In this document: positions 21,830 through 33,079 of the stretch, piece after piece
Position numbering within the stretch: the stretch's first letter is position 1
Layout: each line of letters begins with the position of its first letter
Assembly: GCF_003544935.1 (NCBI RefSeq)
Contig: NZ_CP032098.1
Location: 682,001 to 746,000, forward strand
DNA: 64,000 bases
Direction: 5' to 3'
Origin: Malaciobacter molluscorum LMG 25693
GTDB taxonomy: Bacteria > Campylobacterota > Campylobacteria > Campylobacterales > Arcobacteraceae
The notes under the pieces: model-generated
Told to the model about the DNA's origin: nothing
The model's input: only the letters and a program-made list of their open reading frames with translations
Database searches by the model: none
Made by a program: the position numbers and the translations under genes

Positions 21830-24800
21830 ATGGGCAATAAATATAATGTAATAGAAGCAGGAGTAATACAATGCGCATGTGGAGGTAAAGTAAAGCTTAC
21901 ATCAACAGCAAAAGTAGAAAGAATAGCAGGAAAAAAACCATTATATTTAACTGATATAATAGGAGCACCAGTAGATTGCCCAAGAAGTAAAAATCCTTGT
22001 ACAAAAGTAGCTTCAGTATCAACTGCAGGAACCCAAACAAATGTAAAATCAACATCAAAATATTTTTTATTAAGAACAGATGGATTTAAAACAGATAAAG
22101 GAAGAGCAGTAGTATTAGTAGATCCAGGACAAGGAACATCTCAAATAAGCTCGCCTCCAAGTATAGAAAGTAGTGTAGTAAAAGAAGAAGAACCACTAGA
22201 AGAGACTATAAAACAAGAAGAAGAGATAAAACAAACAGAAAAATACTCTTTGTATTTAGTAAGAAAAAGTGAAGATGTATATAGAGCACTTAGACCAACA
22301 AGAGCATTTTTAAAAAGTGATGATACATATGTAGGGAAAAAAGAGTATGTTCAAATAAAAGATAATGTGCATGTACATACGTTTGCATATGTATATATTA
22401 TTCAAAATGATAAAGTACAAGAATATAAAGTAATAAGTAGAGGGACTTTGTATAGTGAAAAACTACAAGAGATATTTTTTGAAAATACAAAAACAAAAAT
22501 AAAATATAACTATATTCCACTGTATGATGATACACAAACAACTATTTCATATAGTAGTATAAAACTAATAAATAAAGCAGATATACTAAAACTAAAAAGA
22601 CAAATAATAGATCCAAAACAACCAGATAATAAAAATAGTTTTTACTTTAAAGACTCAAATAGTATAAATAAAATAGTATTAACTGAGGATGATTTAAAGA
22701 CTGAGAAAAAATATAAAGTAAATGAAGAAGATAAAAATAAAAGATTAAATATTCTTTGTATAATAGAAGATATCTTAGCCCAAATAGAAGATATGTATGA
22801 AAAATACTACACAAACTATAAACTTGCATATGCTTATAATAATAGTATTATTGAAGATATAAAAAAACAAAATTCATATGTACATACTATCTCAAAGCTA
22901 GTAGATGTATTTTATATAGATGAAAAACAAGAAAAAGATGCAAAAGAGTTAAAAGATACTTATCAAGAATTAGTTACTATACTTTTAAGTGATAAAATAT
23001 GTAGTTCTATACTAACATCTTCAAATAATCTTGCAAATATATTAGATAAAAAAACTTTTGATATTGCAAAATCATATATAAAAGATATAGTAAAATATCA
23101 TGTAGATAAACATAGCTTTGTAACAAAAGATTATTATAAATATCTAAATCCAAATGCAACATATAAAGAAAAAGAATTATTAAAAGAGAGTAAAAACTAT
23201 AAACAGTTATATTTTTATGGAGATAATCCAGAATTTACTAAAATACAAGAAGACCCAAGAGTAGTTGTATCTTATCTTATGTTTGCAATATTTTTTGCAA
23301 ATAAATATGAAGAAAAAATAAGAAAAAGTGAAAAGTTTAAAATAATAGATAGTTTAAGAAAAAAACTATATTTTAAAATTAAACAAATGGCACCTTATCC
23401 CTTAATTTCAGAAGAAAATGCAAGAGATATAAAAAATGTAATAAAAAGACAGCAAAATAGTTATTTTAAAATTATAGAAAGAGAAGATAAATTATTTGAT
23501 GATTATGATAGTTTAGAAACTCAACTTATAAAAAGATCATATGAATTTGATACTTCTCCAATTGAATTTAAATCAAATTTTTTATATTCAAATAAAGAGA
23601 AGTTTTATAAAAATGAAGCAAAATTACAAACTCCAAAAAGTATTTTAAAAAAAATAGAAAAACAACTGCAAAATGAAGAGTTAAAAAAACTATTAAAAAT
23701 ATATGAAGAGATTAAAATAGAAGATAAAGAAGCATATATAATAAGTTGTATGAATATAGTTTGTCTATTAAGTTATCCAAGAATAAAGTTAGATGAAGAA
23801 ATAGATAAAATTAGTTTTTTTGATTCTAAATTAAAACATATCTATACTTTTGTAGAAAATTTGACAGATAGAAGAATACTTTTAAGTGATGAAATAAAAG
23901 ATAGAATTACAAATGAATATAAAATATCAGATGTATATTTAGATATGATATTAAGACTTATAAAATATGCTTATTTTTCTAATGATAATCAAAAAGCAAA
24001 TGCAAAAAGTTTTATAACAAAATATGAAAAAAAAGAAAAGAGAAATTATTTTGTAAAATTAGAAGATATAAATGACCACCTATTTGATGAAAAATTTCAA
24101 TCAAAAAATCTTACAGAAGATATAACAAGTGCATTATATACAATAAATGGATTTAGTCAAAAGACTATTGATTTATTTGAAAATTTTGATAAAAAAAATT
24201 ATAAAATTGAAAAATATAAAAATTTAGAAAAATTTATAGATAAATTAACCGAAACAACCAATAAAATAAAAGTAGCATCTGGAATTATCGCTCTTCTTTC
24301 ACTAGGAATATATATTTTTAGAAAAGATAAAAATATTCAAAATACAATGAGTGTAATTGATGATATATTACACATGACAAAAGTAGTAACAGAAAGAATG
24401 TTAGTAAATTCTGTAAATGCAAATAAATCAGCAGGAACAGTAGAAAAAACAATACAAGAAATATTAAAAGATAAAAAAATCCAATCTATGTCAAAAAGAA
24501 CACTAGAAATAATTACAAAAGTAGGAGTTCCCCTTATTATTATAAATGGTACTTACTCATCATTGAAATTATTGTCAAATGGTGATTATGATGCAAGTTT
24601 TTTAAGTGGATTAAAAACTGTATTGACTGTATCCTTACTTATTGCTTCTGGTGTAACATCTTATATTTTATTATTTTTATTAGAAATAGTTTGGAACTAT
24701 TTTTCTCATTATATAATAGATAGTAGTATAGAAAAATATCTTTATAAATCACTTCTATATGAAGATATATATAAACATAGTGGATTTATAAATTTTTTAT

Positions 24801-25444
24801 TTTTTTTATCAAATATCAATTATAAAGCTTACTATTTATTAGAAACTACAAATAAAAAAGAAGAACTAAAAAGTATAAATAGTGAAGGATTTAAAAATCC
24901 AAAAAAACTAATCAATTTTATAGGAGAGAATTATGAAGAGAATAAAGAATATTTTGATACAGCATTAAGAAATGAACTAAGTTTCTTTAAATCATCACTA
25001 TTTGGATATAAATTAGAACTATTAAATGAAACAAAAAGAGTTAAAAAACTAAAAAATAAGTATGATATAGATATTGTATTAAATGAAAGAACATATATTA
25101 AAATTCCAAAAAATCTATATGAACAAAAAGATATTAAATTTATTTTTGTTTATAATAATAAGTATAAAGTATTAGATGATGAAAATATTGAGTTGTTTAA
25201 AAAAGATAATAACTCAATAATATTTGATTTATATAATCAAAATTTTACTTATTTAAAAGAATTAGCACAATTAAAGAATAAAAAAGCTTCAATTATTGTA
25301 CATTCCCCACAAATAGAGTTAAAATACGATTTTATATATGATTACAAAGAATTAAATTATCTTTTTGCATTAGATTTTAAACAGTCAAGTTTTACATTAA
25401 AAGATATAGAAGAGTTAGAAAAATTAAAAGAAAAAAAGGATTAA
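21830..25444 (+). CDS. PAAR-like (DUF4280) protein with large membrane-active C-terminus, putative type VI effector
   Basis: 1204 residues. The N-terminus (1-~105) is a PAAR-like DUF4280 domain with Cys15, Cys17, Cys50 and Cys57 and the GAPVDCPRSKNPC segment; such domains tip the VgrG spike of type VI secretion systems and carry cargo. An acidic linker (~118-142) leads into a long Lys/Glu/Tyr-rich region of unknown fold (~145-800). Hydrophobic helices follow at ~812-830 and ~923-958 (two to three spans), then a soluble tail of ~240 residues. By inference this is a toxin, perhaps membrane-inserting, with the two lipoproteins downstream (4 bases after the stop) as immunity proteins. No vgrG or other secretion gene is in the window. 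No enzymatic motif is seen. Confidence 0.7.
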   Translation: MGNKYNVIEAGVIQCACGGKVKLTSTAKVERIAGKKPLYLTDIIGAPVDCPRSKNPCTKVASVSTAGTQTNVKSTSKYFLLRTDGFKTDKGRAVVLVDPGQGTSQISSPPSIESSVVKEEEPLEETIKQEEEIKQTEKYSLYLVRKSEDVYRALRPTRAFLKSDDTYVGKKEYVQIKDNVHVHTFAYVYIIQNDKVQEYKVISRGTLYSEKLQEIFFENTKTKIKYNYIPLYDDTQTTISYSSIKLINKADILKLKRQIIDPKQPDNKNSFYFKDSNSINKIVLTEDDLKTEKKYKVNEEDKNKRLNILCIIEDILAQIEDMYEKYYTNYKLAYAYNNSIIEDIKKQNSYVHTISKLVDVFYIDEKQEKDAKELKDTYQELVTILLSDKICSSILTSSNNLANILDKKTFDIAKSYIKDIVKYHVDKHSFVTKDYYKYLNPNATYKEKELLKESKNYKQLYFYGDNPEFTKIQEDPRVVVSYLMFAIFFANKYEEKIRKSEKFKIIDSLRKKLYFKIKQMAPYPLISEENARDIKNVIKRQQNSYFKIIEREDKLFDDYDSLETQLIKRSYEFDTSPIEFKSNFLYSNKEKFYKNEAKLQTPKSILKKIEKQLQNEELKKLLKIYEEIKIEDKEAYIISCMNIVCLLSYPRIKLDEEIDKISFFDSKLKHIYTFVENLTDRRILLSDEIKDRITNEYKISDVYLDMILRLIKYAYFSNDNQKANAKSFITKYEKKEKRNYFVKLEDINDHLFDEKFQSKNLTEDITSALYTINGFSQKTIDLFENFDKKNYKIEKYKNLEKFIDKLTETTNKIKVASGIIALLSLGIYIFRKDKNIQNTMSVIDDILHMTKVVTERMLVNSVNANKSAGTVEKTIQEILKDKKIQSMSKRTLEIITKVGVPLIIINGTYSSLKLLSNGDYDASFLSGLKTVLTVSLLIASGVTSYILLFLLEIVWNYFSHYIIDSSIEKYLYKSLLYEDIYKHSGFINFLFFLSNINYKAYYLLETTNKKEELKSINSEGFKNPKKLINFIGENYEENKEYFDTALRNELSFFKSSLFGYKLELLNETKRVKKLKNKYDIDIVLNERTYIKIPKNLYEQKDIKFIFVYNNKYKVLDDENIELFKKDNNSIIFDLYNQNFTYLKELAQLKNKKASIIVHSPQIELKYDFIYDYKELNYLFALDFKQSSFTLKDIEELEKLKEKKD

Positions 25445-25447
25445 AAA

Positions 25448-26263
25448 GTGAAAATAAAAAAGGTATTAAAATTACTATTAGTAATAAATATAATATTTAT
25501 ATTTACAGGATGTAATGATACTAGTGATAATGAAAAAAAAGAAGTAAAATATAAAGCAAGTTTACCAATGCCAAATACTAAAGGAATTAGAGAAATAGGA
25601 GCAATATCTTTTTTACATCAAGCAAAAACAGACCCAAGTGCAGCAACAAAGATAGGATACTCATACTCAGAAGAATTAAAAGATTATGATAAAGCTATCA
25701 AATGGTATAAATACTCAAACTCGATGAAACCAACAGGAGTAAATTCAAATTATATGTGTTATGCATATCAAATGAAAAAAGATTATGATGAAGCAATAAA
25801 ATGGTGTAAAAATGCAATTGATTTAGGGAATAAAGAAGCATTAGATAATATTGCATCTTTATATTATGATAAAAATAATTATGAAGAAGCAATAAAATAT
25901 TATAAAGAGTTGGCAAAAAAATATAAAAGTAAAAAAGCAATGTTTAATCTAGGATATATTTATAAAGAGAATATAAAAAATTATAAAGAATCGGAAAAAT
26001 GGTATAAAGAAGCAATAAAAAACAATAAATTGAAAGCATATAAAAACTTATCAAATTTGTATTATGAAAAATTAAAAGATAATGTAAAAGCAAGTGCATA
26101 TGCAATTGCTTTAATAAATACAAAATATTCAAAAGAATCAGTAATTAAAATATTAAAAGAAAGAAACTTTTCAAACGAAACAATAAAAAAAGGTTATGAA
26201 CTACAACTAAATTCAGATGAATTTCCAATAAAATATAAAGGTAAGTTAGATTTAGATGAATAG
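25448..26263 (+). CDS. Sel1/TPR-repeat lipoprotein, putative immunity protein (copy 1)
   Basis: 271 residues from GTG 25448, behind AAGGATTAAAAA. Lipoprotein signal with lipobox FTGC (Cys22). The mature part is a series of Sel1/TPR-like helical repeats (YDKAIKWYKYS, YDEAIKWCKNAIDLG, YEEAIKYYKELAKK, YKESEKWYKEAIKN). It starts 3 bases after the effector stop, so it is co-translated with it. Lipoprotein location suits an immunity protein against a toxin acting in the periplasm or inner membrane. Copy 2 follows with an identical last ~20 residues and a nearly identical central block. Confidence 0.7.
   Translation: MKIKKVLKLLLVINIIFIFTGCNDTSDNEKKEVKYKASLPMPNTKGIREIGAISFLHQAKTDPSAATKIGYSYSEELKDYDKAIKWYKYSNSMKPTGVNSNYMCYAYQMKKDYDEAIKWCKNAIDLGNKEALDNIASLYYDKNNYEEAIKYYKELAKKYKSKKAMFNLGYIYKENIKNYKESEKWYKEAIKNNKLKAYKNLSNLYYEKLKDNVKASAYAIALINTKYSKESVIKILKERNFSNETIKKGYELQLNSDEFPIKYKGKLDLDE
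25622..25838 (+). repeat. 217-bp near-identical block, copy 1 of 2
   Basis: Matches 26436-26652 at a constant offset of 814 bases with about three mismatches, inside the two lipoprotein genes. Flanking parts of the same genes are far more diverged, but the last 61 bases (26203-26263 versus 27017-27077) are again identical, a mosaic pattern. Confidence 0.9.
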
Positions 26264-27077
26264 TGTGAAGATAAAAAAGGTACTAAAATTACTATTTGTA
26301 ATAAATATAATATTTATATTTACAGGATGTAATGATAGTAGTGAAAAAATAGTAAATAATAAGATTGCTTTGCAAATACCCAAAGTTAATGAAAATGAAA
26401 TTGGGAAATATTATAATTTTAGTGATTATTTAGATGCAAAAACAGACCCAAGCGCTGCAACAAAGATAGGATACTCATACTCAGAAGAATTAAAAGATTA
26501 TGATAAAGCTATCAAATGGTATAAATACTCAAACTCGATGAAACCAACAGGAGTAAATTCAAATTATATGTGTTATGCATATCAAATGAAAAAAGATTAT
26601 GATGAAGCAATAAAATGGTGTAAAAATGCAATTGATTTGGGGAATAAAGAAGTATATGCAAATTTAGGAGATATGTATTTTAATATGAAGAAATATGAAG
26701 ATTCTATAATAATATATAAAGAAGGTTATAAAAAAACAAATAATACTGACTTGTTAACAAATATTGCATACATATATGATGAAGAAAAGAAAGATTATAA
26801 AGAAACAGAGAAATGGTATATAAAAGCATCAAAAGAAGGAAACTTAAAAGCATATCAAGGACTTTCTTATTTATATTTTTCTAAATTAAATAAGAAAATC
26901 AAGTCCTCTGCATATGCAATAGCATTAATAGAAAATAAATATAGTAAAAGTTCAGTAATTAAAATATTAAAAGAAAGAAACTTTACTAAAGATGTAATCC
27001 AAAAAGGTTATGACTTACAACTAAATTCAGATGAATTTCCAATAAAATATAAAGGTAAGTTAGATTTAGATGAATAG
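26256..27077 (+). CDS. Sel1/TPR-repeat lipoprotein, putative immunity protein (copy 2)
   Basis: 273 residues from ATG 26256, overlapping copy 1's stop by 8 bases; the paralogue's start instead corresponds to GTG 26265 (MKIKKVLKLLF). Either way translation depends on read-through coupling, since no separate ribosome-binding site is seen. Lipobox FTGC as in copy 1. Central repeats are shared with copy 1, whereas the segments ~28-60 and ~135-240 differ. Duplicated, diverging immunity genes are common behind polymorphic toxins and may protect against variant effectors. Lack of a matching second effector here leaves that as inference. Confidence 0.68.
   Translation: MNSVKIKKVLKLLFVINIIFIFTGCNDSSEKIVNNKIALQIPKVNENEIGKYYNFSDYLDAKTDPSAATKIGYSYSEELKDYDKAIKWYKYSNSMKPTGVNSNYMCYAYQMKKDYDEAIKWCKNAIDLGNKEVYANLGDMYFNMKKYEDSIIIYKEGYKKTNNTDLLTNIAYIYDEEKKDYKETEKWYIKASKEGNLKAYQGLSYLYFSKLNKKIKSSAYAIALIENKYSKSSVIKILKERNFTKDVIQKGYDLQLNSDEFPIKYKGKLDLDE
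26436..26652 (+). repeat. 217-bp near-identical block, copy 2 of 2
   Basis: Second copy of the block described at 25622-25838; differences at GCGCTG versus GTGCAG near the start and at one wobble base near the end. Confidence 0.9.
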
Positions 27078-27086
27078 ATAAAGTTA

Positions 27087-27109
27087 AAAGTCTTAAGAAA
27101 TAAGACTTT
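27087..27109 (-). terminator. Terminator of the PLP-enzyme operon (minus strand)
   Basis: Nine-bp stem AAAGTCTTA (27087-27095) with TAAGACTTT (27101-27109), loop AGAAA. On the minus strand the arm is followed by TTTTAAC. The stop codon of the minus-strand gene (27093-27095) is inside the stem. Confidence 0.6.
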
Positions 27110-28598
27110 CTACTCTTTTAAATTCGTTGATAATATCTTCAATATTTTCAGTTCCAACTGAAATACGAAGTAAATCAATAGGTAAGTTTATTTTTTTTAA
27201 AAACTCTTGGCCTTTTTTACAAGAGATATAATCATAATGTGCTAAATAAACATATGGCATAAGCAAAGTGAATTCAGTTCCTAGACTTGGTCCTTTTGCA
27301 AAGTTTAAGTTATCATATATTTTTCTAAAATCTTTTTTAAATGTTACAGAAATTAGTCCTGAATATGAGTTATCATCAATCATTGCTATTTCATAGTTTT
27401 TTTTATTTTCTTCATTACAACAGTAATAAATTCTATCTATAAGTGGGTTTTGTTTAAAATATTTTATAAGTTTTTTTGTATTTGCACTTATTTTTTTTAC
27501 TCTTTTTTCGTATCCTTTTATTTCATAAGCTAATCTTTGAATATCTTTTATATATACCATATCAAGATGTTTGAAAAATTCACCTTGCATATGTGAAATT
27601 TTGAAGTTTTCATTTAATATAACTGCTCCCATTAATACATCTGCATTTCCACAGGCAAATTTAGTAAGTGATTCTACTAAAATATCTGCATATGGTTTTA
27701 GATTTAGATTATATGGTGTTGCTAAAGTTGCATCAATAACAAGTGGAATATTGTATTTATCACATAATTGTCTTAATCTTTTTACATCAACACTTTGAAT
27801 TAATGGGTTTGTAGGAATTTCAGTAATTATTGCAGATACATTTAATCCATTTTTTTCTAAAAACTCTTCTACTATATCAAGATTTGAAATATCAAGAAAC
27901 TTTTTTGTTCTATCATAATGATGCTCAACTATATTCATAGTATCAAGGTATAACCATCCAAGTTGAACTAAAATAGTTCTATTACTTTTTTCTTGGATTT
28001 TTTTCAAACCTCTTACAACAGAGTATATTGCATTCATACCTGATGGCGCAAGTCCTATGTTTTCTATTGGTTGATTGTATGCTTTTGCAAGAGTATTTTT
28101 TAGTGTAAATGTTGCAGTTTTTTCATCTTCTAATTCTTCTTTGTGAATTGTATCGATTATTTTTACTTTATATAAATAATCTTGTGCAAATCTTGAAGAT
28201 AAATTACAACCAACATGTTGAATAAAAGTAAGAACTTTTTGAAGTTGTGTTGTTCCTTTTATTACTAAAATTACACCAAAAGGTTCATCAATATCTATTT
28301 TATTATAAATAAAATATTTATCACTTACAATTTTTACAGCCTCTTGTGAACTTAAAAGTACAACTTCATAATTGTCACAAACACTATATTTTTCTTTGAT
28401 ATATTTTGCAAGAATTTTTAAATAAGGATGCAAAATAAATCTAGGATAAGCACTTTTTATTTTTTCTAGTATTTCAGGAGTATGCTCTTCATAATCTATG
28501 ACATCTTGAAGTGTTGGCATACTTACTGAAACTGCATGAATATTTTTTATAGGTAGTGTTTCCCCACAAGCAATGTGCTTAAATACTTCTTTTTTCAT
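27093..28598 (-). CDS. Cystathionine gamma-synthase-like PLP enzyme with N-terminal extension
   Basis: 501 residues. The C-terminal ~330 residues are a Cys/Met-metabolism PLP-dependent fold: GLAPSGMNAIYSVVRGL (phosphate-binding region), ITEIPTNPLIQSVD, LVIDATLATPYNLN (PLP-contacting Asp) and the Schiff-base lysine in ESLTKFACGNADVLMG. The first ~160 residues are an extra domain not found in the shorter neighbour, like the long cystathionine gamma-synthase type of fungi and some bacteria. Usual family length is ~380-400. It lies 7 bases after the 383-residue enzyme, so the two probably form one sulfur-amino-acid operon. Exact reaction is not decidable. Confidence 0.72.
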   Translation of the reverse strand: MKKEVFKHIACGETLPIKNIHAVSVSMPTLQDVIDYEEHTPEILEKIKSAYPRFILHPYLKILAKYIKEKYSVCDNYEVVLLSSQEAVKIVSDKYFIYNKIDIDEPFGVILVIKGTTQLQKVLTFIQHVGCNLSSRFAQDYLYKVKIIDTIHKEELEDEKTATFTLKNTLAKAYNQPIENIGLAPSGMNAIYSVVRGLKKIQEKSNRTILVQLGWLYLDTMNIVEHHYDRTKKFLDISNLDIVEEFLEKNGLNVSAIITEIPTNPLIQSVDVKRLRQLCDKYNIPLVIDATLATPYNLNLKPYADILVESLTKFACGNADVLMGAVILNENFKISHMQGEFFKHLDMVYIKDIQRLAYEIKGYEKRVKKISANTKKLIKYFKQNPLIDRIYYCCNEENKKNYEIAMIDDNSYSGLISVTFKKDFRKIYDNLNFAKGPSLGTEFTLLMPYVYLAHYDYISCKKGQEFLKKINLPIDLLRISVGTENIEDIINEFKRVESLIS

Positions 28599-28605
28599 CT
28601 ACTTT

Positions 28606-29757
28606 TTACTTTACTGATTGTTCTATATCTTCTATTAAATCTTCAACATTCTCTAAACCAATAGAAAATCTTACTGTACTATCACTTATTCCAATAGCAG
28701 CTAATTCTTCTTTTGAAAAACTTGCATGTGATATTTTTGCAGGAATTTCTACTCTTGAATCTGGACTACCAAAAGAGCATTTTTCTCCAAAAAATTTAGT
28801 ATTTTCAATAAACTTTTCTGCTAACTCTTGAGTTGTGAAATCTGCACAAAATACACCTGGAATATATTTCATCTGTTTATTTGCTAACTCATATTGAGGA
28901 TGAGATTTTAAAGCAGGGTGAGTTACTTTTTTTATATAGTCTTGTTTTTCTAAAAATTGTGCAATTTTTAGTGAACTCTCTTGGTGCTCTTTCATTCTTA
29001 CTTTTAGTGTTGGAATACCAAGTGATATTAAATATACATCCATTGGATTTTGGCTTCTACCATGTGCATTTGCATAATAGTGAATTTGTTGGCTTAACTC
29101 TTTTGTTTTTGCAACAATTGCACCTGCAACTACTGCTCCATGACCTGAAATATATTTTGTAGTAGAAAATAGACTAAAATCAGCTCCTAAATCTAAAGGT
29201 CTTTGACTTATAAAAGTAGCAAGTGAATTATCAACTGCAAAAAGTGAATTATATTTATGTGCTAAAGTTGCAACTTCTTCTAAATCAATTATTTTAAGAC
29301 CAGGATTTGTTGGACTTTCACATAATACTAAATCAATTGGATTAGTTTTTAAAATCTCTTCTAATTTATCAAACTCTAAAAAGTTTGCAAAGTGAACTGT
29401 AATATTATATTTTTCTTTAAATACTTTTAATAATCTAAAAGTTCCACCATAACAATCAGCTTCTACAACAATATGAGAATTTGCTTTTAGAACTGTTTCA
29501 AATAGAAGTGCAACAGATGCAATTCCTGTATGTGTACAAACACATCCTGCACCATTTTCAACTTCTGTGAAAAGATTTTCTAACATCTCTCTTGTTGGGT
29601 TATCACTTCTTGTGTAATCATAAATTTTATCACCATTTTGTTTTTTTAAATCAAATGTTCCTGTGTTATAAATTGGAAAATGTGAAGCTCCAGCTACATC
29701 TTCAAACGGAGCAAATTTTGCTATATGGCTTAATGTTGTTTCAATATTTTTATACAT
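28606..29757 (-). CDS. Cys/Met-metabolism PLP enzyme (cystathionine gamma-synthase/MetB type)
   Basis: 383 residues, the normal family length. Landmarks: an N-terminal YDYTRSDNPTREMLENL, the phosphate-binding HTGIASVALLFE, CESPTNPGLKIID, FAVDNSLATFISQRPLD (PLP-contacting Asp) and the PLP lysine in FSTTKYISGH. The C-terminal RFSIGLENVEDLIEDIEQS is the standard end. Family members join an activated homoserine to cysteine or sulfide, or cleave cystathionine; the sequence does not separate these. First gene of a two-gene operon; ribosome-binding site GGGGAATAA. Confidence 0.8.
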   Translation of the reverse strand: MYKNIETTLSHIAKFAPFEDVAGASHFPIYNTGTFDLKKQNGDKIYDYTRSDNPTREMLENLFTEVENGAGCVCTHTGIASVALLFETVLKANSHIVVEADCYGGTFRLLKVFKEKYNITVHFANFLEFDKLEEILKTNPIDLVLCESPTNPGLKIIDLEEVATLAHKYNSLFAVDNSLATFISQRPLDLGADFSLFSTTKYISGHGAVVAGAIVAKTKELSQQIHYYANAHGRSQNPMDVYLISLGIPTLKVRMKEHQESSLKIAQFLEKQDYIKKVTHPALKSHPQYELANKQMKYIPGVFCADFTTQELAEKFIENTKFFGEKCSFGSPDSRVEIPAKISHASFSKEELAAIGISDSTVRFSIGLENVEDLIEDIEQSVK

Positions 29758-29830: not shown

Positions 29831-31486
29831 TTATATATTTTTTTCAAAATTTGTTACTATTTGTTTTTCTCTATATATTAAAAATGGGTCTTCATAATAT
29901 CTGTTTTTAGTTGTGTTTGAACCTTGTTTTATTATAAGCGCTTTTATGTCAGTTCTATTTATATTAAAATCTTCATAAATAAAACCAGCTTTTGCAAAAC
30001 CTGCTTTTATTATGGAGTTATTTTGTGAGCAAATGATAATCGCATCTTTATTTAAAACCACTTTTAATAGTATAAAAAAATTATAAGTTAAAAGTGAAGG
30101 GTTTAGATTTGGTAAGAAAGCATCCAAAAAAACTATGTCATATTTTTTTTCTAGTTTTGTAATAGTAAATCTTGCATCACCTAGTAATAATTGCAAAGAG
30201 TTATTAGAATCTTCATATTTTAATGTTTCAAATATAGAATCTAAAATCTTTTTTTCATCACTATTATTATTTAGATTTGATGAGTGTTTTATTATGATTC
30301 TATTTTTATCAAGTGCTGTTATATTTACTTTTTTTTCTTTCGGAAGTTTTATTATAGCAAGAGAGTTATAACCCATGCCAAAACCAATATCAAGAATATT
30401 CAAATCATTTTTTTGTAGTTTTTCTTCTAGTTTTGATTGTTTTATAAAAAGTTCATCTGCTTGAGTATAAGCACCACTTTTTGGATGATAAAAATCTTTA
30501 TATGTTTTATCCCAAATAGTTACACTATTATCTTCTAATTTAAAGCTATTTTGTTTTTTTAAATCTATAGTTTGTTTATCTAATAAATCACCTTGAGCGT
30601 AACCTTGATAAAACATAGTTTCATTTATATATTCTACAAATTGTCCTTTTTGCATATGCCAAATAGGTGCTACTAAATCATTAGATGAAGTATCTGTTGA
30701 AGTTCTTATTATTGGAATTTCTTTAGGTATATTTCTAATCAAGAAGATAAGTTCATCTGCATATTCATATTCGTTATATACTTTAAAAGCTCTATTCTCA
30801 AACTGTTTATGTAATTGAGTGTTTTTTATTATATGTAAATTGTGTATTTTTATTCCGTCAACTTTTTGTTTTACAATATTTTGTACTGTATTTAGCCAAT
30901 CTTCTCTTGTCTCGTTTTCAAACCCTACAATAATATGAGCAAATACTTTTAAGTTATATTTTTTTATCTTTTTTATAGCTTCAATACTGCATTTTGAGTC
31001 ATGACCTCTATTTATATCTTTTAAAGTTGAATCATTTAAAGTTTGAATACCTAAGTCTATATAAACATCTATTTGTTCATTTAACTCTTGTAAATATTCT
31101 AATGTCTTTGTATTTAAACAATCTGGTCTTGTACCTATGCTAATGGCTTTAAATTTATATAAATTTAGTAATTTTGAATATATTTGTTTTTGATTTATTA
31201 CTGAAGTAAATGTACCTGTATAAGCTTGGATATAAAGCATAAATTCATTTGCATTGTATCTATTTTTTGAAAATGATATTGCATTTTTTATTTGCTGTTC
31301 TACATCTTTTGCATCTAAAAGTTGTGCTGCTCTTGCTCCGTTTTCAGGACAAAAAGTACAACCACCAATTCCATCTTTTGTTCTATTTGGACAACCTAAA
31401 TCTAAATCAATTGGAATAGTATGAAGTGCAGTATTGTAGATATTTTTCATATATGCTTTAAAAGTAAAGTAGGGTGCTTCTTGCAT
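29831..31486 (-). CDS. Radical-SAM (YhcC/YtqA type) fused to MnmC2-like methyltransferase
   Basis: 551 residues in two domains. Residues ~1-290 are a radical-SAM protein of the YhcC/YtqA type, with iron-sulfur ligands Cys32, Cys43 and Cys46 (GGCTFC) and SIGTRPDCL and DLGIQTLND motifs. Residues ~305-551 resemble the DUF752/MnmC2 tRNA methyltransferase: FYHPKSGAYTQADELFIKQS, the SAM-binding LDIGFGMGYNSLAI, LLLGDARFTI and DIVFLDAFLPNLNP. MnmC2 makes mnm5(s2)U34 in tRNA. In Bacillus the radical-SAM protein YtqA (MnmL) and methyltransferase YtqB (MnmM) replace the two MnmC activities, so the fusion suggests one enzyme for cmnm5U to mnm5U. That role is inference; the domain calls are firm. Confidence 0.82.
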   Translation of the reverse strand: MQEAPYFTFKAYMKNIYNTALHTIPIDLDLGCPNRTKDGIGGCTFCPENGARAAQLLDAKDVEQQIKNAISFSKNRYNANEFMLYIQAYTGTFTSVINQKQIYSKLLNLYKFKAISIGTRPDCLNTKTLEYLQELNEQIDVYIDLGIQTLNDSTLKDINRGHDSKCSIEAIKKIKKYNLKVFAHIIVGFENETREDWLNTVQNIVKQKVDGIKIHNLHIIKNTQLHKQFENRAFKVYNEYEYADELIFLIRNIPKEIPIIRTSTDTSSNDLVAPIWHMQKGQFVEYINETMFYQGYAQGDLLDKQTIDLKKQNSFKLEDNSVTIWDKTYKDFYHPKSGAYTQADELFIKQSKLEEKLQKNDLNILDIGFGMGYNSLAIIKLPKEKKVNITALDKNRIIIKHSSNLNNNSDEKKILDSIFETLKYEDSNNSLQLLLGDARFTITKLEKKYDIVFLDAFLPNLNPSLLTYNFFILLKVVLNKDAIIICSQNNSIIKAGFAKAGFIYEDFNINRTDIKALIIKQGSNTTKNRYYEDPFLIYREKQIVTNFEKNI

Positions 31487-31618
31487 GTAATAAATCCTTT
31501 GCGCAATTATATTTATATTTTCATTAAAATTTATTTTTTGTTTAAAAAATCAATATAATAGAAAGAGTATAGGAGAAAAACTATCTTATTTTGTTAGTTT
31601 AAAATAAAAAGAGATTTT

Positions 31619-33079
31619 ATGAAATTAGATGAATTAGAATTTCAAACAAAATATTTAGATAGTGTTGATAAAAAATTTTACCAACTATTAGATGCAACTG
31701 CCCTTGATGATGCTTTTTTAATATCTTACAATAAAAAACTTTGTGATGAAATAGAACTTGATTATAAAGAGTGTGAAACAAAAGATTTTGTTGATTTTAT
31801 AAATGGTAAAAAAGTATTAAAAGGTTCAATTCCTTATTCTATGGTTTATGCAGGACATCAATTTGGGCAGTTTGTTCCAAAACTTGGAGATGGAAGAGCA
31901 ATAAACTTAGGAAGTATAAAATCTTGGCATTTACAAACAAAAGGTTCTGGACTTACAAACTATTCAAGACAAGGTGACGGAAGGGCAGTTTTGCGTTCAA
32001 GTATAAGAGAGTATATAATAAGTGAAGCAATGTATGCTTTAAATATACCAACAACAAGAGCTTTGGCTATTATTGGTTCAGACCACGATGTTTATAGAGG
32101 TCCTTTTGAAATAGAAAAGGGTGCTGTGGTTTTAAGAGCAAGTAGTTCATGGATAAGAATAGGTACTTTTGAATTTTTTGCAAGAAGTGAAGACCCTAAA
32201 AAGAACTTAACTTCATTGGCAGATTTTGTAATTAGTGAAAACTATAAACATTTAGAAAATGATAAAAATAAATATGAAAAGTTTTTTTATGAATTAGTTG
32301 ATAAAACAGCACTTCTTATAGCAAAATGGCAAGTTTATGGATTTATGCATGGAGTTATGAATACAGATAATATGAGTGTAGATGGTATTAGTATTGATTA
32401 TGGACCATTTAGTTTTATGGATTATTTTGAAAAACATTATATTTGTAATCATACAGATGTTGAAGGAAGATACTCTTATAATAATCAACCATATATTGCA
32501 AAATGGAATCTTTTTGTTTTAGCTGATTCTTTGAGTTTTATTGCAGATTTTGAGAATTTACAAAAGTATTTGAAAAACTTTTTTTCTTTACATGAAGAGG
32601 CATATTTAGAACTTATGAATGAAAGATTAGGACTTGATATTAATCTAAGTGGAGATAGAAATCTTGATTTAATTATAAGGTTATTAAAAGCATTGGAAGA
32701 GTCAAAAATTGACTATAATTTTTTCTTTTATTTATTGTCAAAAATTGAAAATCCAGATGATTTTGCATCTGTTTTAGATAATTGTATTTATCCTGAACAT
32801 ATGAAAAAATGGATAGAAGATTATAAAAGAGTTTTACTTTTAGATCCAAGAACTCATAATCAAAGATGTGAAGAAATGAGTAGAGTAAATCCAAAATATA
32901 TAATAAAAAATTATATATTAGAAGAAGCAATAAAAGATGCACAAAATGATGATTTTAAGTTAGTAAATGATTTATTAAATATTGCTCAAAACCCTTTTTC
33001 TGAGCACAAAGAGTTTGAACGATACTCTAAAGCAACACCATTAAAGTATGCAAATATTAAGTTATCTTGTTCTTCCTAA
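31619..33079 (+). CDS. selO: SelO/YdiU protein adenylyltransferase
   Basis: A 486-residue pseudokinase-fold enzyme that transfers AMP to Ser/Thr/Tyr of target proteins, linked in other bacteria to redox stress. Signature pieces are present: YSMVYAGHQFGQFVPKLGDGRA, LQTKGSGLTNYSRQGDGRAVLRSSIREY, the central GFMHGVMNTDNMSVDGISIDYGPF stretch holding metal-binding Asn/Asp, and NPKYIIKNYILEEAI near the C-terminus. No C-terminal selenocysteine is expected in this type, although the chain ends CSS. Ribosome-binding site AAAGAGA. It is a single-gene unit closed by a shared terminator. Confidence 0.92.
   Translation: MKLDELEFQTKYLDSVDKKFYQLLDATALDDAFLISYNKKLCDEIELDYKECETKDFVDFINGKKVLKGSIPYSMVYAGHQFGQFVPKLGDGRAINLGSIKSWHLQTKGSGLTNYSRQGDGRAVLRSSIREYIISEAMYALNIPTTRALAIIGSDHDVYRGPFEIEKGAVVLRASSSWIRIGTFEFFARSEDPKKNLTSLADFVISENYKHLENDKNKYEKFFYELVDKTALLIAKWQVYGFMHGVMNTDNMSVDGISIDYGPFSFMDYFEKHYICNHTDVEGRYSYNNQPYIAKWNLFVLADSLSFIADFENLQKYLKNFFSLHEEAYLELMNERLGLDINLSGDRNLDLIIRLLKALEESKIDYNFFFYLLSKIENPDDFASVLDNCIYPEHMKKWIEDYKRVLLLDPRTHNQRCEEMSRVNPKYIIKNYILEEAIKDAQNDDFKLVNDLLNIAQNPFSEHKEFERYSKATPLKYANIKLSCSS

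Follow-up and report, generated by a model that had tools for sequence, protein, structure and literature searches.

The fusion gene and its neighbourhood

The window, i.e. the whole analysed stretch of 64,000 bp, belongs to the complete 2.80-Mb genome of Malaciobacter molluscorum. It contains, on the minus strand, a gene encoding a 551-aa protein in which a radical-SAM domain of the MnmL/YtqA type is joined to a methyltransferase of the MnmC2 type. The ORF starts with an ATG at position 31486 and ends with a stop codon at 29831–29833. The plus strand of the same interval (29831–31486) has no open reading and contains stops throughout. The features of the gene are listed below; all are on the minus strand.

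31495..31500, minus: AAAGGA, a Shine-Dalgarno-like sequence 8 nt before the fusion ATG (sequence read directly)
29831..31486, minus: fusion CDS, 551 aa, MnmL/YtqA-type radical SAM plus MnmC2-type methyltransferase (HMMs, AlphaFold2, fold search)
30581..31471, minus: radical-SAM domain, residues 6–302, TIGR01212, PF04055, PF16199 (HMMs; Elp3-like fold)
31349..31393, minus: Fe-S cluster motif C32-(x10)-C43-x2-C46 (invariant across aligned fusions)
30527..30580, minus: variable interdomain linker, residues ~303–320 (alignment, dN/dS analysis)
29834..30526, minus: MnmC2-type methyltransferase domain, residues 321–551, PF05430 (HMMs, structure matches)
30365..30394, minus: conserved SAM-binding motif L365-DIGFGMGYN374 (alignment of fusions)
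30089..30124, minus: post-SAM motif D455-AFLPNLNPSLL466, in which the Asp corresponding to E. coli D178 is retained and L stands in place of W189 (alignment; roles from PMC3648344)

The AlphaFold2 model of the protein has a pLDDT of 83.5 and a pTM of 0.85 and consists of two known folds. Full-length fusions were found again in dozens of genomes, with identity down to ~38–40%. Both halves evolve under purifying selection, the dN/dS ratio being ~0.10–0.20 for the radical-SAM half and 0.11–0.31 for the methyltransferase half. This recurrence and the low dN/dS rule out a chance ORF or a sequencing join. Hence, the radical-SAM and MnmC2-like fusion proposed in the earlier note is confirmed by HMMs, AlphaFold2 and recurrence, and its strand, which the note does not give, is minus.

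The genes surrounding the fusion are as follows.

27093..28598, minus: second enzyme of the PF01053 family (family match)
28606..29757, minus: downstream neighbour, Cys/Met metabolism PLP enzyme (PF01053), separated by a 73-nt gap and adjacent to the fusion gene in most members of the genus
31619..33079, plus: divergent neighbour, SelO (PF02696; family match)

In Sulfurospirillum the neighbours are a YgbA_NO gene and a molybdopterin oxidoreductase. Since the contexts differ between lineages, the neighbours were not used for assigning function. In two Sulfurospirillum-like loci, L176 (4796–5143) and L177 (6602–6949), the small upstream gene overlaps the fusion gene by one base; the L176 gene matches PF11756 (YgbA_NO) with 51.5 bits, and visual comparison suggests that L177 has the same gene. 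In E. coli, YgbA has been connected with nitrosative stress. Elsewhere in the window (21830–27077), a 1204-aa protein is followed by two small lipoproteins that are near duplicates of each other and contain Sel1-like repeats (25448–26263 and 26256–27077), which by eye looks like a putative effector/immunity arrangement.

The radical-SAM half

Residues 6–302 match the NCBIfam equivalog TIGR01212 ("tRNA modification radical SAM protein MnmL/YtqA") with 251.5 bits, above the cut-off of 180. The score for TIGR01211, 65.7 bits, is far under its cut-off of 350. Residues 18–300 of the AlphaFold2 model superpose on the radical-SAM domains of Elp3 with Z-scores up to 22.4. The fusion thus resembles the Elp3/Elongator radical-SAM domain in fold, and both have the wobble uridine as their target, assigned by prediction in the case of the fusion. 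Unlike Elp3, the fusion lacks an acetyltransferase domain and would catalyze a different reaction.

The roles of MnmL (YtqA) and MnmM (YtqB) in B. subtilis are described in PMC12548931 and PMC9976899. The radical-SAM half shares the TIGR01212 family with B. subtilis MnmL, which is a protein separate from MnmM, whereas here the radical-SAM domain and the methyltransferase are fused. Membership in TIGR01212 alone does not prove the conversion of cmnm5 to nm5, since E. coli has an MnmL/YhcC-family protein in addition to MnmC. In E. coli K-12, yhcC, which belongs to the family of the radical-SAM half (L165, 3122–4051), is found together with a full mnmC (L166, 2765–4771). To our knowledge, the cmnm5-to-nm5 step of YtqA/MnmL is based on genetics, and its chemistry has not been worked out.

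The methyltransferase half

Pfam PF05430 (Methyltransf_30) matches residues 419–502 with 52.4 bits, passing the gathering score of 22. The NCBIfam MnmC2 model NF033855 matches residues 327–505 with 78 bits, below its curated cut-off of 136; no match in 42 genomes, stand-alone Campylobacterota MnmC2 proteins included, reaches this cut-off. As it is missed here, we refer to the C-terminal half as MnmC2-type rather than as an MnmC2 equivalog. The stand-alone MnmC2/DUF752 protein of Aquifex aeolicus (3vyw) is its best match both by sequence (E-value 1.2e-17 among solved structures) and by fold, with residues 308–551 of the AlphaFold2 model superposing at Z 24.5 and 3.2 Å over 234 residues with 27% identity. 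Unlike the Aquifex protein, this domain is fused, and its substrate-side Trp/Pro motif has diverged in Campylobacterota.

MnmM (YtqB) belongs to a methyltransferase family other than MnmC2. No YtqB-type family is among the Pfam and NCBIfam matches listed for the C-terminal half. The parallel with Bacillus YtqA and YtqB drawn in the earlier note therefore holds for the radical-SAM half, which is of the MnmL/YtqA type, and fails for the methyltransferase half, which is of the MnmC2 type.

The SAM site of MnmC2 is formed by the FGxG loop, an acidic residue binding the ribose, and Asp178 (PMC3648344). The corresponding residues of the fusion are F369, G370, G372, N374, D393 (Glu replaced by Asp), D437 and D455. 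Apart from single exceptions, the fusions keep the FGxGxN loop and the Asp equivalent to D178. In the sampled Campylobacterota fusions, Asp nearly always takes the place of the ribose-binding Glu, and the position of W189 is invariably occupied by L, V or I instead of Trp (L466 in the window protein). The equivalent of Pro182 is retained as P459 in the window protein; most relatives lack it, and in Campylobacterota fusions it is often E or H. All sampled fusions from the Kiritimatiellota group and all stand-alone MnmC2 proteins keep both the Trp and the Glu.

As the substrate-side motif has diverged in Campylobacterota, the methylation step is less certain than the radical-SAM step, and in this phylum the methyltransferase half may have another or a weaker activity. 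Purifying selection shows that this half is in use, and its decay is rejected by the dN/dS of 0.11–0.31. One may suppose that only the radical-SAM half acts as predicted, yielding nm5(s2)U34, while the methyltransferase half in Campylobacterota has been repurposed to modify another group or tRNA, or mainly to bind tRNA, in which case mnm5 would come from another methyltransferase or not be formed at all. The altered equivalents of W189, P182 and E101 are consistent with such a change, as is the stem branch, which is longer for the methyltransferase half (0.93) than for the radical-SAM half (0.3). We nonetheless consider it unlikely, given the retained SAM core (FGxGxN and the Asp178 equivalent) and the low dN/dS; moreover, a search limited to MnmC2-like proteins found none besides the fusion in genus g41 of Sulfurospirillaceae.

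Other wobble-uridine genes of the genome

Both MnmE and MnmG, which would supply the substrate of the fusion, are encoded in the genome of M. molluscorum. A family search additionally identified the following genes.

C1:1657025-1658134: stand-alone MnmC1-like FAD protein, 383 aa (TIGR03197, 149–153 bits, cut-off 174)
C1:189845-190435: stand-alone MnmC2
C1:279754-280680: separate stand-alone MnmL/YhcC-type protein

For the 383-aa protein, TIGR03197 is the best family, the best non-MnmC family being ThiO with 48 bits, and its only matches among solved structures are MnmC proteins of the E. coli/Yersinia type. The stand-alone MnmC2 gene adjoins what we take by eye to be luxS, and the stand-alone MnmL/YhcC gene adjoins a presumed purF. 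Pfam and NCBIfam scans of the fusion protein itself gave no DAO or TIGR03197 match.

Judging by sequence, the fusion in M. molluscorum is thus an extra copy of both activities. With MnmC1, MnmC2 and another MnmL/YhcC protein also encoded, this genome may not depend on the fusion for mnm5U. The earlier note suggested that the radical-SAM domain takes the place of the oxidoreductase, and named a full MnmC elsewhere in the genome as something that would refute its reading. Such an MnmC is present here in split form, as the stand-alone MnmC1-like and MnmC2 proteins, and the suggestion does not apply to this genome.

Distribution of the fusion and absence of MnmC1

The fusion is encoded in all six genomes of Malaciobacter and in two of the 16 genomes of a sister genus in Arcobacteraceae (g10). 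Loci assigned to Malaciobacter halophilus and to Arcobacter sp. CECT 8985 contain the same fusion sequences as members of this genus. In a set of 397 Campylobacterota genomes, it was also found in most members of Sulfurospirillaceae (f10) seen and in one member of another family, f4. Outside this phylum, Kiritimatiellales turned up as carriers when named genomes were scanned, and 195 genomes of the Kiritimatiellota/Verrucomicrobiota group contained ~41 full-length or near-full-length fusions. Hence, the survey for the same fusion proposed in the earlier note shows that it recurs in two phylum-level groups.

The Arcobacteraceae that carry the fusion retain MnmC1, MnmC2 and the stand-alone radical-SAM protein. 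In contrast, no full MnmC1 was found in the 19 fusion-bearing genomes of Sulfurospirillaceae when all candidates were scored; there was one weak partial match (59 bits). In 18 of these 19 genomes, including all 15 of g41, the fusion is the sole MnmC2-like match, and in two genomes (G331 and G353) it is also the only TIGR01212 protein. Another genus of the same family, g44 (G161 and G405), has MnmC1 and no fusion. A similar pattern is seen in genus g64 of family f4, where one genome, G432, contains the fusion and lacks MnmC1, and its ten congeners contain MnmC1 and lack the fusion; only four candidates per genome were scored in f4, which makes these absences less firm than those in Sulfurospirillaceae.

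A fusion able to take over the function of MnmC1 would be expected to give this distribution, with MnmC1 absent from genomes that carry the fusion. The suggested substitution of the oxidoreductase thus stands for Sulfurospirillaceae and G432, which lack a full MnmC1, and not for Malaciobacter, and the proposed link of the fusion to the wobble uridine is strengthened by the fusion-bearing Campylobacterota outside Arcobacteraceae. Campylobacterota show just two clear cases of replacement, and with so few events the correlation stems mostly from common descent.

In genome G231 (L094, 1360–3096), purF-like, mnmL/yhcC-type and mnmC2 genes stand in a row, the TAG stop of the mnmL/yhcC-type gene being directly followed by the GTG start of mnmC2. 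We rejected this locus as a divergent fusion, since these are two abutting genes; their arrangement independently supports joint action of the two proteins. The 1.5-Mb genome G270 (Sulfurospirillaceae, genus g58) has no match to the fusion, MnmC1 or MnmC2 and encodes only a stand-alone TIGR01212 protein. It may have lost the mnm5 branch.

The same data bear on two other explanations. The radical-SAM half could act on a position or substrate other than cmnm5U, as YhcC may do in MnmC-containing E. coli, with the fused domains sharing tRNA binding only. In its favour, E. coli has a TIGR01212 protein alongside MnmC, and Arcobacteraceae have such proteins alongside MnmC1/MnmC2. We regard it as highly improbable, because the fused radical-SAM domains form a lineage apart from the stand-alone proteins of Campylobacterota and E. 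coli on the trees, and because it is the fusion specifically that the absence of MnmC1 goes with. According to the second explanation, the Malaciobacter fusion serves a subset of tRNAs or a wobble derivative different from those served by the stand-alone MnmC1/MnmC2 pair. All tested members of the genus keep the fusion under selection beside a complete stand-alone set, and in E. coli the final wobble product differs from one tRNA to another (PMC3936742). The outright replacement of MnmC1 outside Arcobacteraceae points instead to the same reaction, and we deem a different subset rather improbable.

Evolutionary history

On the trees of each half, the Campylobacterota fusions form one clade, in which those of Arcobacteraceae are nested within those of Sulfurospirillaceae. 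This clade adjoins or falls within the fusions of the Kiritimatiellota/Verrucomicrobiota group. Since the placement is the same in both trees, the two halves have travelled together. The simplest reading of the trees is a transfer from the Kiritimatiellota/Verrucomicrobiota group to Campylobacterota and then to Arcobacteraceae, its direction being inferred.

A single clade of all fused radical-SAM domains was weakly rejected (p-AU 0.044). Stand-alone radical-SAM proteins of the Verrucomicrobiota group that have no methyltransferase half (L167, L168, L170–L172) are placed among the fused domains. Hence, either the methyltransferase half was lost there or fusion occurred more than once.

Proposed function

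The fusion very probably completes a modification of tRNA. We think it probable that it is a bifunctional, oxygen-independent enzyme of the tRNA wobble uridine, converting cmnm5(s2)U34 to nm5 and then to mnm5, and that in Malaciobacter it acts beside the FAD route. The radical-SAM domain, with a 4Fe-4S cluster and SAM, would generate the 5'-deoxyadenosyl radical, which would strip the carboxymethyl group from MnmEG-made cmnm5(s2)U34 to give nm5(s2)U34. This probably proceeds by abstraction of a hydrogen from the glycine-derived carbon, after which oxidation gives an imine that is hydrolyzed. With a second SAM, the C-terminal domain would then methylate nm5 to mnm5.

Many carriers of the fusion belong to anaerobic or microaerophilic groups. 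MnmC1 resembles glycine oxidase (PMC3648344), and since in the fusion a radical enzyme replaces this FAD-containing, glycine-oxidase-like domain, the fusion should work without oxygen. In Sulfurospirillaceae, and probably in Kiritimatiellota, it would be the route in use. In Malaciobacter it would have been gained atop stand-alone MnmC1 and MnmC2, providing a second, probably anoxic, route.

In its widest and more speculative form, the scenario places the origin of the fusion, as an oxygen-independent equivalent of MnmC, in the Kiritimatiellota/Verrucomicrobiota group. From there it would have passed to Campylobacterota and displaced MnmC1 at least twice; in Malaciobacter it would form an anoxic/oxic pair with the FAD route, and its methyltransferase would be drifting to a new specificity. 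We consider this full sequence of events possible, with the odds against it.

Relation to known systems

Like the bifunctional MnmC of E. coli (3ps9/3awi), the fusion combines in one polypeptide an MnmC2 methyltransferase (fold Z 19.1) with a domain for the cmnm5-to-nm5 step. In E. coli MnmC, however, the methyltransferase is N-terminal and joined to the FAD domain MnmC1, whereas here it is C-terminal and joined to a radical-SAM domain. The radical-SAM MnmL and the bifunctional MnmC were known already, and the radical-SAM/MnmC2 fusion in reversed order is a variant of these. The abstract of the key MnmL paper by Jaroch et al. 2024 reportedly mentions "fusion proteins" in this pathway. We found nothing further in the literature on YhcC and MnmL/MnmC2 fusions, and the fusion may partly be published already. 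What appears to be new is the pattern in which MnmC1 is replaced, the persistence of the complete FAD route beside the fusion in Malaciobacter, the occurrence of the fusion in more than one phylum, and the divergence of its methyltransferase motif.

Standing in for MnmC1, the fusion is a self-contained protein for reconstitution of both steps, and it allows one to test a radical enzyme as an oxygen-free alternative to a flavin enzyme. Moreover, genomes annotated as having no MnmC may nonetheless make mnm5U.
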